From: Leptolyngbya sp. SIO1E4
Lineage (GTDB): Bacteria; Cyanobacteriota; Cyanobacteriia; Phormidesmidales; Phormidesmidaceae
Assembly (NCBI GenBank): GCA_010672825.2
Contig: JAAHFU020000005.1
Coordinates: forward strand, 124,001-188,000
Direction: 5' to 3'
Length of the DNA: 64,000 nt
This document shows positions 32,996-36,745 of the stretch, one piece after another (the first letter of the stretch is position 1; each line of letters starts with the position of its first letter). Below the pieces are notes generated by a model. The model did not search any database, was not told the DNA's origin, and saw nothing but the letters and a program-made list of their open reading frames with translations. Both the position numbers and the translations under genes were made by a program.

Positions 32996-33775
32996 TCAGA
33001 ACTGGCGACGGGCAAAAATAAGAATGGCAACGGTCAACAGTAGGGCAATGTAAAACAACCCGTAGAGTAGATGGCTCGTTAACTCTAGGGCAGACGGTAG
33101 CAGCGTCATACCATAAATTGCTTCATTACGAAGGTTGAGCCGTTCTAAGTCGGGCAACACTAGATACATGCCGTTGGCAACTCGCTGTAGACTGGCATTT
33201 TCACTCAGCTGCCCTAACGCCACAATGTCTCGGCTCAGATGCCCCATCAGATACACAGCAATGGTGAGCAGCGTAGCCAGCAGAGAGCTTGTAAACACCC
33301 CAAACAACATAGCGACAGCCGTCAGCAACGCCATTTCTATAAAGGTAAAAAAGACGGCTAGCAACATACTGGCCCAAGAGAACGGAACTTGATTCACCGC
33401 TAAAACCACCAGGTAGATAGCGGTGAGCAAGGCCATCAGCACGACCAAAACTGCAGATAACCCCAGATGTTTTCCTAAAACGAACTCTAATCGGCTCACC
33501 GGTTTAGCAATCAGAACTAAGACAGTGCGCTTGTCAATTTCCTTGTTAATTAAACTCGTGCCCACAAACACCGTCACCACGAGTCCGAGTAAATGAATTC
33601 CAGCCAGTCCCAAATCGAGGGTGATTTTACCCTGCGCACCTGCTGCCACCTCTGGCAGTAAGGCTGCTGCCGCCACTAAAAAAACGGCATATACTGCGAC
33701 CAAATACAGCACGCGATCGCGAATGACCTCTCGAAAGACGTTACTGGCAATCACCCAAATACACGACAGACTCAT
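32996..33775 (-). CDS. fraE: ABC-2 type permease, probable FraE
   Basis: A 259-residue integral membrane protein with about six helices. The N-terminus, IWVIASNVFREVIRDRVLYL, and the cytosolic loop FVGTSLINKEIDKRTVLVLIAKPVSRLEF are typical of ABC-2 permeases. Size (Anabaena FraE is about 261 residues), strand and position directly after fraC-fraD identify it as FraE, required with FraC and FraD for filament integrity and heterocyst maturation in Anabaena. No ATP-binding partner is adjacent, so one would be encoded elsewhere. Start ATG 33775; the 109-bp gap from fraD holds no gene. The identification rests on synteny and topology. Confidence 0.75.
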   Translation of the reverse strand: MSLSCIWVIASNVFREVIRDRVLYLVAVYAVFLVAAAALLPEVAAGAQGKITLDLGLAGIHLLGLVVTVFVGTSLINKEIDKRTVLVLIAKPVSRLEFVLGKHLGLSAVLVVLMALLTAIYLVVLAVNQVPFSWASMLLAVFFTFIEMALLTAVAMLFGVFTSSLLATLLTIAVYLMGHLSRDIVALGQLSENASLQRVANGMYLVLPDLERLNLRNEAIYGMTLLPSALELTSHLLYGLFYIALLLTVAILIFARRQF

Positions 33776-33884
33776 GGCTTGTAGGGGCTCCTCCTCGTTT
33801 AATTGTTGCTTTAACCGTTGCGTCGACAGGCCGTCTGTGGGCGTGACAAAGGCGCGATCGTGCTGGCCTTTAATCCCCTCTCAT

Positions 33885-34889
33885 TTAGGTAACTGAATCA
33901 GGCCTACCCATGCGTTTCGGAGTGGCTAAATCACAGGTAACTTCCGCCATCAAAGTCGGGGAGGTCGGCTCCTCTTGATTTTCGGCACCGTTCGGTTGCG
34001 ATTGCGGTTGGGGGCGCGGCTGAATGAAACAGGTTTTTTCAAAGTAGTAGCCATTGGGATCAGAGGCCGGCCCGGACCATAGCGCCATCAAATCGAGCGC
34101 GTAGCCATCATTGAAGGTACGGGGGCGGGCCTCTAACTGCCACATATCTTTTTCCTTAGAGCCTTCCAGGGTTATCGCGGTCTCTATCTGCAGTTTGCCA
34201 ACCTGCTCATTTAAGTTCAGCAACCAACGCTCTACATAGGGCCACGGCGTGTCGTTGAGGGCAGCTTTAACTTCTCCTTCTGCAGCAGTCAATAGCGAGA
34301 CCCCCTTGCCCCCATTTTCAGGCTGCGCCGACAGACGATACACAAACCCACTGTTGTTAAAACTATCAGCCAAAAGGCTCGGGTAATCGTTCAGCCAGGA
34401 TTGCAGCCGGAAATAAAATTGAAACCAGCTACTGAACAACAACGCCACCAAAACCAGTAAGATGAGCTGCTGGCGTACCATTGGCAGCGGCACTTTGGGC
34501 TGCAGTTCCCAGGTAAAAAATTGAGGGATCGCCACGATCGCCACAGACACCAAAGGCCATGTTGTGAGCGCAATTGGCCAATTTCCCCAGGGAACTAACC
34601 CAAAAAAATAGATACAGACAATCGCACCGGCCACCCAGGGAGCCAGAGGAATTCCAAACGGGCGTATCTTATTTTTTTCTAAAAACCACCCGATCCCCAG
34701 GGCGAAAAAGACCCACCCTGCCGTTGCAATAAAGTTTTCAGTAATTGCCAGAGCCCCGGATAATCGAGCTACCCAAGACATCGTAAAAGAGAAGAACCCC
34801 AGATAAATAATGGTTTGCCAAGAGAAGTAGTCTTGGGGAAAGAAGAACTCTGTAATGCTGTCCCACACTTTTTTGAGAAGCTGAATCAT
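33885..34889 (-). CDS. fraD: Probable septal junction protein FraD
   Basis: A 334-residue protein with an N-terminal half of about five hydrophobic helices (roughly 20-195) and a hydrophilic C-terminal half, ending in a Pro/Gln/Asn-rich tail. That topology and length fit Anabaena FraD (about 343 residues), a component of septal junctions that carry molecules between neighbouring cells; its C-terminal half faces the periplasm. The start overlaps the fraC stop as ATGA (34886-34889), indicating translational coupling. Identification depends on order, size and topology because the sequence itself has no catalytic motif. Confidence 0.72.
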   Translation of the reverse strand: MIQLLKKVWDSITEFFFPQDYFSWQTIIYLGFFSFTMSWVARLSGALAITENFIATAGWVFFALGIGWFLEKNKIRPFGIPLAPWVAGAIVCIYFFGLVPWGNWPIALTTWPLVSVAIVAIPQFFTWELQPKVPLPMVRQQLILLVLVALLFSSWFQFYFRLQSWLNDYPSLLADSFNNSGFVYRLSAQPENGGKGVSLLTAAEGEVKAALNDTPWPYVERWLLNLNEQVGKLQIETAITLEGSKEKDMWQLEARPRTFNDGYALDLMALWSGPASDPNGYYFEKTCFIQPRPQPQSQPNGAENQEEPTSPTLMAEVTCDLATPKRMGRPDSVT

Positions 34890-35455
34890 ATCCCCTGCCC
34901 AATCCCATTGCGTAACAGCAGCAGCAGCAAGATAGCTGTAAAACTCAGGGCATTCGCCTGAAGCACGGCCAGGAGGTGAGGTGAGGCTGCATTACGAGCA
35001 GGCCGCAATCGCCCATATCGAATCCGGTTAGGGTTTGCCCTTTTTATTGGCTGCACAATGGGAACCCCCAATAGCCAGGTCAGGGCTTCGAGTGCCTTTG
35101 CTTTAATCCAGAATGTGAGAAAAAAAGTTACCAGGCCAGCAGCCACAATAGCCGCCCCTAAACCACTTGCTAGAGAATTGCTGTAGAAATGCCCAAACAA
35201 AACATAGCTAATGATCTGCGTTCTCATAGAGGGAGGCAAAAGCGCCTCTACAATGAGAAACGCAATCCATCCCAGAACGACCGCCAGCAGATTGAGGCTC
35301 GCTGCATAGCGAATACTGGGCTGGAACCCTAATCGTAACTGCCGTCGCAACACAATCGCCTCCAGCGAAATCGCGACTAACAGCAGCAAACACTGGAAAA
35401 TAATCGCTCGCAGCGGTAACACCGCCGCTTCATCTAAAAATAGGGAAAAGGGCAT
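34886..35455 (-). CDS. fraC: Probable filament integrity protein FraC
   Basis: A 189-residue membrane protein with three or four hydrophobic segments and a basic stretch (IKRANPNRIRYGRLRPARN) before the last one. In Anabaena, FraC (about 179 residues) is the first gene of fraC-fraD-fraE and acts at intercellular septa. ATG 35455 places LPLRAIIFQ close to the N-terminus; GAGG lies only 2 nt upstream of it, so the TTG at 35506, adding 17 residues, cannot be excluded. The gene overlaps fraD by 4 bp and is divergent from the CobA-like gene. Confidence 0.72.
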   Translation of the reverse strand: MPFSLFLDEAAVLPLRAIIFQCLLLLVAISLEAIVLRRQLRLGFQPSIRYAASLNLLAVVLGWIAFLIVEALLPPSMRTQIISYVLFGHFYSNSLASGLGAAIVAAGLVTFFLTFWIKAKALEALTWLLGVPIVQPIKRANPNRIRYGRLRPARNAASPHLLAVLQANALSFTAILLLLLLRNGIGQGI

Positions 35456-35611
35456 AGCCTCACCATCATCATGGCCCTTTAGGCTCTGTTTGAAAGCACC
35501 GATCAACCGCTAAAGTATACTTCTCCCTGCCTGAATTGAGGCACAGGGTATCTCCCCTGAGAACGTTTCGCTAGAATCTTGGACTGGAGCTTCTAAAAAA
35601 ACTTAACCCCT

Positions 35612-36745
35612 ATGGTCAGAACTGGGATTGGCATCCGCACAGCACAACTCAACAACGAGCGACTAGCTGGGCAAATTCATGTCTACGACGGGGAAGGCAA
35701 AGGCAAATCTCAGGTAGCGCTAGGCGTTGTGTTGCGCTCTATTGGCCTAGGGATTCAAACCTTTATGGAAAGCCGAGTGCTGCTGCTACGGTTCTTGAAG
35801 GGGCCGGGACGTACTTATGACGAAGATGCGGCAATTGAGGCCCTGCAGCGAGGCTTCCCACACCTGATTGACCAGGTACGCACAGGGCGAGCCGAGTTTT
35901 TTGGCCCAGATGGCATTACCAAGTTTGATAAGCAAGAAGCTCAGCGAGGGTGGGATGTTGCCAAAGGTGCGATCGCCTCAGGGCTCTACTCCGTTGTTGT
36001 CCTCGATGAAATCAACCCAGTGTTAGACCTAGGGCTATTGTCCATTGATGAGGTCGTACGAACGCTTAAGCAAAAACCAGACCATTTAGAAGTCATTGCC
36101 ACCGGGCGGGCCGCTCCCCAACCATTGCTGGAAATTGCCGATCTGCATTCAGAAATGAAGCCCCTACCCCATAAAAATGTTGATTTTCCAGGCATTGAGG
36201 GGGTAGAAATCTACACGGGAGATGGGAAAGGAAAGTCCACAAGCGCATTGGGTAAAGCACTCCAGGCAATTGGTCGAGGCATTAGCCAGGATAAGTCGCA
36301 CCGAGTGTTGATTATGCAGTGGTTGAAAGGAGGGCAGGGCTACACAGAAGATGCCGCGATCGCCGCACTCCACAAAAGCTACCCCAATTTGGTCGATCAT
36401 CAGCGCTGCGGGCGAGATGCCATTGTCTGGCGAGGGCAACAGCAGGAAATCGATTATGTAGAAGCAGAACGGGGCTGGGAAATTGCCTGCGCTGCGATCG
36501 CCTCTGGTCTCTACAAAACCATCATCCTAGACGAGCTCAACCCTACAGTGGATTTAGAGCTATTACCGGAAGAGCCCATTGTGCAAGCGCTCCTGCGTAA
36601 ACCCCGCGACACTGAAGTCATCATCACCGGGCGCTGTAAAAACCCCCCCGCCTACTTCGAACTCGCCAGCACCCACTCAGAAGTGTTTAACCATAAACAT
36701 TATGCAGAGAAAGGCATTGACCTTAAACGAGGGGTCGATTTCTAA
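35612..36745 (+). CDS. Tandem-duplicated CobA/BtuR-like P-loop protein
   Basis: A 377-residue cytoplasmic protein made of two homologous halves, each resembling the ATP:corrinoid adenosyltransferase CobA/BtuR. Half 1 (about 20-190): P-loop GEGKGKS (27-33), DEDAAIEAL, RGWDVAKGAIASGLYSVVVLDEINP. Half 2 (about 196-377): P-loop GDGKGKS (203-209), TEDAAIAAL, RGWEIACAAIASGLYKTIILDELNP. Both halves keep the nucleotide-binding loop and the LDE-NP strand, so neither is obviously dead. Single-domain CobA acts as a homodimer; this could be an internal pseudo-dimer. No other cobalamin gene or B12 riboswitch was seen, so a role in corrinoid adenosylation is inferred only. Confidence 0.8.
   Translation: MVRTGIGIRTAQLNNERLAGQIHVYDGEGKGKSQVALGVVLRSIGLGIQTFMESRVLLLRFLKGPGRTYDEDAAIEALQRGFPHLIDQVRTGRAEFFGPDGITKFDKQEAQRGWDVAKGAIASGLYSVVVLDEINPVLDLGLLSIDEVVRTLKQKPDHLEVIATGRAAPQPLLEIADLHSEMKPLPHKNVDFPGIEGVEIYTGDGKGKSTSALGKALQAIGRGISQDKSHRVLIMQWLKGGQGYTEDAAIAALHKSYPNLVDHQRCGRDAIVWRGQQQEIDYVEAERGWEIACAAIASGLYKTIILDELNPTVDLELLPEEPIVQALLRKPRDTEVIITGRCKNPPAYFELASTHSEVFNHKHYAEKGIDLKRGVDF

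Follow-up and report, generated by a model that had tools for sequence, protein, structure and literature searches.

An operon on the minus strand of the analysed DNA was identified as fraC-fraD-fraE, and its host as a filament-forming cyanobacterium akin to Halomicronema/Leptolyngbya, most likely without heterocysts; judged from sequence, this reading of operon and host was given a probability of about 0.93. The DNA, called the window below, is a 64,000-nt stretch from Leptolyngbya sp. SIO1E4 (contig 5, 124001-188000), in a genome of 8.2 Mb (99.99% complete, 2.15% contamination). The operon is a fresh example of the familiar fraC-fraD-fraE set, extended to another lineage, and is ordinary in itself.

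The fraC-fraD-fraE locus and its neighbours

ORF positions and profile searches gave fraC (35455-34886, minus strand; 189 aa from the first in-frame ATG, at 35455), fraD (34889-33885, minus; 334 aa) and fraE (33775-32996, minus; 259 aa; a NosY-like ABC-2 permease), in the order, place and strand described in an earlier note on this DNA. The ATGA overlap reported there was confirmed at 34889-34886, where the fraD ATG (34889-34887) lies on the fraC TGA (34888-34886). The span it had given, 32996-35506, was right for the genes but not for the outer start: 35506 is a TTG, 17 codons upstream of ATG 35455, and the ATG fits the FraC family length better. The gene larE (32922-32095, minus; 275 aa; TIGR00268, 331 bits, cut-off 150) lies close behind fraE on the same strand, as had been noted, and is possibly co-transcribed with the three genes; the gaps are 109 nt (fraD-fraE) and 73 nt (fraE-larE). 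On the other flank, cobO, encoding a two-domain cob(I)yrinic acid a,c-diamide adenosyltransferase (35612..36745, plus strand; NF005647, 740.6 bits), is divergent from fraC, and the 156 nt between the two genes (35456..35611) are the presumed site of the fraC promoter. A promoter scan gave 2 sites against 3.2 by chance, none of them in the 156-nt region. Terminator-like sites numbered 10 against 4.9 by chance, and on the minus strand neither the fraD-fraE nor the fraE-larE gap contained one. That the end of fraD might be frameshifted was considered and ruled out: both alternative frames there are interrupted by stops, and PF17310 is matched up to model position 319 of 322.

FraC has four hydrophobic regions and was matched by Pfam PF24301 (E 2.3e-50, 171.5 bits; cut-off 27) and by the NCBIfam equivalog NF045624 (162 bits; cut-off 100). 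FraD was matched by PF17310 (E 2e-82, 276.9 bits; cut-off 25) from residue 2 to 320, on model positions 4-319. The NCBIfam subfamily model NF037953 was covered whole at 227.5 bits, under its cut-off of 400, and by that cut-off FraD is not filed in the subfamily. Profile searches thus placed both proteins in the families given in the earlier note and not in unrelated ones. FraE was matched in Pfam by ABC-2 permease families only (best ABC2_membrane_2, PF12679, 58.8 bits; cut-off 27.2); since these labels are general, its name was drawn from its position downstream of fraC-fraD and from alignment, in which it is 54% identical to FraE of Nostoc punctiforme NIES-2108, encoded next to fraC-fraD in that genome. 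FraD is 34% identical to FraD of the same strain, which, and not PCC 7120, was the reference for these identities. In Anabaena sp. PCC 7120 the three genes stand in the same order (alr2392-alr2393-alr2394), and each window protein (189/334/259 aa) is within 10 residues of its counterpart (179/343/267 aa in the available text of PMC12421839), as had been claimed for order and size. The window differs from Anabaena in its host, most likely non-heterocystous, and in the larE downstream.

Loci were viewed from 60 of the 76 FraD genomes besides the window's own, 32 of the 60 coming from one family, f7, which appears to be Nostocaceae. The order fraC-fraD-fraE was kept in 54 of the 60 (exceptions L033, L035, L043, L047, L055 and L056). 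In 12 of 30 diverse loci (L033-L062), larE followed downstream of fraE at a distance of no more than 300 nt, and the proximity of fraE and larE is thus a recurrent gene order and no peculiarity of the window; in 17 of the 30, cobO was divergent beside fraC, counting one fragmentary copy and one at a distance of 1.2 kb. The Halomicronema/Nodosilinea-type loci L063, L068 and L069 share the gene order and the divergent cobO, and L063 encodes FraD and FraE 59% and 77% identical to those of the window. Unlike the window, L063 and L069 have no larE in view; L068 is uninformative on this point because it ends 136 nt after fraE. Because fraE stands apart from fraD in several relatives (L064, Leptolyngbya SIOISBB, with FraD encoded elsewhere; L083; and G170, with fraC-fraD together and fraE elsewhere), its tie to fraCD is loose. 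Two Symploca MAGs (L107, L142) carry fraC-fraD on the opposite strand, across cobO from fraE-larE. In a Gloeocapsa MAG (L115) fraE directly adjoins cobO with no fraCD between, and FraD was not found genome-wide.

Distribution of the Fra proteins and growth form of the host

Across 386 genomes of the phylum, FraC and FraD occurred together in 77; FraC alone was found in one (G207, for a FraC total of 78) and FraD alone in none. Two genomes (G039, G354) each had two FraC matches, on separate contigs. FraE was found in 138 of the 386, including all 77 with FraD; of the 61 with FraE and no FraD, 16 lie outside class Cyanobacteriia, in lineages which we take to be non-photosynthetic. A scan of contigs with the window FraD matched 28 stretches, 0 of which were confirmed. 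A second scan was made with the FraE alignment, and the best 80 of 495 confirmed loci were taken; FraD was out of view in 16 of these 80. The 16 genomes, with two positive controls, were then searched whole for FraD (18 named genomes); both controls had it, as did 8 of the 16.

FraD was present in all seven test genomes that were filament-named or had no genus and absent from eight of the nine with coccoid or otherwise non-filamentous titles, the habit of the genera being taken from general knowledge. It was found in Leptolyngbya SIOISBB, Halomicronema CCY15110, Moorena bouillonii, a Nostoc MAG, three genus-less MAGs and an Aphanothece MAG; it was not found genome-wide in Unicellular cyanobacterium SU2, Synechocystis salina, Gloeocapsa, Snowella, Tatlockia, Chroococcidiopsidaceae, Aliterella or Microcystis. 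Aphanothece is a coccoid genus, and the label of the FraD-encoding MAG (L095) is possibly wrong, the genome otherwise being an exception to the filament rule. A MAG titled Tatlockia (L124) carries a cyanobacterial-type FraE, and its title is probably wrong.

The earlier note had taken the Fra set as a whole for a sign of filaments. That sign was kept for FraC and FraD, whose distribution supports the view that they track filament formation, but was rejected for FraE, which drops out as filament evidence, being also carried by unicellular genomes and by classes outside Cyanobacteriia. According to the accessible part of PMC9722847, FraD is conserved in filamentous cyanobacteria; the distribution of FraD found here agrees with that statement, and FraE appears more widely spread.

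Further signs of growth form were found elsewhere in the genome. A 607-aa protein (L175:6518-8338) combines a coiled coil and a Pro/Ser/Thr-rich linker, both read by eye, with a DMT permease (EamA, 7e-21, in the C-terminal part), and is called SepJ-like here by architecture and not by alignment with a known SepJ. Two HetR-family proteins (L146:8840-9787 and L147:8309-9259) scored 556 and 363 bits against an equivalog cut-off of 489, and a nif cluster is present (L176; nifH by profile, the other genes read by eye). In a FraE tree the window was sister to Halomicronema and Leptolyngbya (support 100/98) and apart from Nostoc, its FraE being 77% identical to that of an uncultured Halomicronema and 76% to that of Leptolyngbya SIOISBB. 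From the FraC/FraD distribution, the SepJ-like protein, HetR and the FraE tree it follows that filamentous growth and septal junctions are very likely in this organism, and the suggestion of a filament made from the operon is supported.

Retention of the Fra homologues by a non-filamentous organism, for another envelope role, would fit the unicellular genomes and the 61 genomes in all that have FraE without FraD, as well as the one Aphanothece-labelled MAG that carries FraD. It is very improbable for the window, where FraC and FraD are both present at full length; FraD was absent from nearly all coccoid or non-filament-titled test genomes, a SepJ-like protein and HetR accompany the operon in the genome, and the nearest named kin in the FraE tree belong to genera that are filamentous by general knowledge. 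Origin of the cluster in a heterocyst former, to which the two HetR-family proteins and the nif cluster might point, is likewise very unlikely, with FraE grouping with Halomicronema/Leptolyngbya apart from Nostoc and the genome standing outside f7, the family with the strongest FraD matches. HetR is also present in non-heterocystous filaments. A filamentous, most likely non-heterocystous host is the preferred reading, and the non-heterocystous filament proposed earlier is well supported, on kinship. Counting against the reading of operon and host as a whole are the FraD score under the NF037953 cut-off and the loose tie of fraE to fraCD.

FraD model, cysteines and short forms

FraD was modelled with AlphaFold from 49 aligned sequences, the window's own and those of 48 of the 64 named loci with FraD in view (mean pLDDT 90.7). 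The model has helices at 24-43, 48-72, 83-97, 101-124 and 136-168, followed by a mixed domain at 195-327. This domain is predicted to be periplasmic, and the topology claimed from the letters agrees with the model: five helices and a periplasmic domain, the layout given for Anabaena FraD in the available text of PMC6463045. Foldseek returned no match standing out for whole FraD (best E 0.53) or for its periplasmic half (best E 0.70), VIA fold searches gave best Z values of 6.6 and 5.0, respectively, again with no standout, and a PDB sequence search with FraD gave matches only at E 0.24 or worse. A new fold does not follow from these null searches of a model.

The periplasmic half (window 33885-34358, minus) has exactly two cysteines, C287 and C319, both invariant in the 49 aligned sequences. 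Exactly two were also counted in 114 of the 116 loci in which that half was found, a set in which some genomes may occur twice since two locus sets were joined; the exceptions were L055, where four were counted, and L097, whose split frame had none. A conserved disulfide in the periplasmic half is likely from this pattern. A literature search for FraD with a disulfide and the septal junction found no paper. In PMC9722847, the Anabaena FraD antibody peptide is periplasmic and ends in a cysteine, and 8 of its 18 positions match the window stretch ending at C287.

A short FraD, with frames of 188-211 aa, was found in nine of the 77 FraD genomes, spread over four families (L048, L049, L050, L051, L052, L057, L058, L061 and L062). 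A profile of the membrane half matched all 14 loci searched, nine with short FraD and five controls. A profile of the periplasmic half matched the five controls and 0 of the nine short-FraD loci (14-15 kb each). The short FraD, consisting of the membrane half only, may already be known to the literature. The window FraD is of the full form and not of the short kind.

A candidate ATPase for FraE and the proposed role of the operon

A candidate ABC ATPase partner for the ABC-2 permease FraE is encoded outside the window, about 54 kb from fraE (contig 5, 212236-212955, minus; L212:5994-6986). With a profile of the outgroup ATPase, this protein scored 332.7 bits in the window's genome, and the runner-up among the 67 matches reached 202.7. 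Of 127 FraE loci, 14 had an ABC ATPase frame in view; in five of them (L191-L195), each belonging to a genome outside class Cyanobacteriia, the frame directly adjoined fraE. The ATPase adjoins fraE, at a gap of 0-225 nt, in all 13 sampled non-Cyanobacteriia genomes in which both passed the cut; in a fourteenth (G035) a truncated ATPase frame stands beside fraE at the end of a contig (L195). In one genome (G001) it is the weaker of two FraE copies that adjoins the ATPase.

Against the PDB, the FraE profile had a single match at E 1 or better, NosY (7o0y, E 2.8e-4), and the best stand-alone match of the ATPase profile was NosF (1.4e-61), with fused ABCA transporters scoring higher. FraE and the candidate each point to one half of NosFY in the NosDFY complex, from which they differ in gene context, and the ABCA transporters outscore NosF for the ATPase.

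Inside class Cyanobacteriia no ATPase was found beside fraE in any viewed locus. Around the ATPase itself, 21 Cyanobacteriia loci, including that of the window's genome, had no widely conserved neighbour; clusters of related neighbours recurred in at most three loci, with the sole exception of one that holds response-regulator-like proteins, found in five loci at varying places. In the 386 genomes FraE and the ATPase occurred together in 133, FraE only in 5 (G013, G026, G035, G105, G374), the ATPase only in 2 (G087, G282) and neither in 246; G105 and G374 have FraE and no ATPase above the cut. A control ATPase with its own adjacent permease gave 133/5/7/241, so that the co-occurrence is mostly shared phylogeny and is weak evidence for the pairing. 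Genomes discordant with FraE numbered 7 for the candidate and 12 for the control; the candidate follows FraE in 10 of the 12, and the control follows it in 5 of the 7. The comparison is rough, since the query was a single protein for the control but a profile for the candidate, and the analyst set the thresholds.

The pairing is carried by the adjacency in the outgroup classes and the gap in bit score, and the chances that the candidate powers FraE were put at about even. Somewhat less probable, and tentative, is that FraE has no dedicated ATPase in Cyanobacteriia and acts as a scaffold or borrows another ABC-2 ATPase, in which case the outgroup neighbour would be uninformative on present function. 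This would account for the lack of an ATPase beside fraE in the viewed Cyanobacteriia loci and for a co-occurrence hardly above that of the control, but sits poorly with the adjacency in 13 of 13 outgroup genomes, with one clear best match in the window's own genome and with the candidate's siding with FraE in most genomes where FraE and the control part. In the parts of the literature available to our search, no named ATPase for FraE was found.

The available texts describe FraC as needed for FraD localisation and FraD as a component of the septal junction plug (PMC12096826), and FraE as an ABC permease needed for constriction of the heterocyst pole (PMC9503725); for the subcellular location of FraE, the accessible part of PMC6463045 states that no information was available as of 2018. 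By homology, the operon would have a septal function in this organism, with FraC localising FraD and FraD belonging to the membrane plug of the septal junctions by which adjacent cells are connected. FraE would be distinct from these and older, supplying the membrane half of the phylum's NosFY-like ABC machine, and its gene would have come to lie behind fraC-fraD in the lineages that form filaments. Driven by the candidate ATPase encoded elsewhere, FraE would spend ATP on remodelling the envelope at septa or poles, alongside the junction and not as part of its tube.

Taken further, an ancient NosFY-like machine of FraE and its ATPase may have had its ATPase gene split off in Cyanobacteriia, after which FraE was recruited into the fraCD operon by filamentous lineages, so that the shaping of septa and heterocyst poles would depend on an unlinked ATPase; separately, the septal junctions of several lineages would be built with a FraD lacking the periplasmic half, the core of the plug being the membrane bundle alone. 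We hold this proposal to be right or wrong with roughly equal probability. Its parts worth following are the candidate ATPase and the short FraD. If the ATPase ortholog is the motor of FraE, the role of FraE would be testable by removal of one gene, and the natural short forms of FraD offer a ready comparison for the role of the periplasmic domain.
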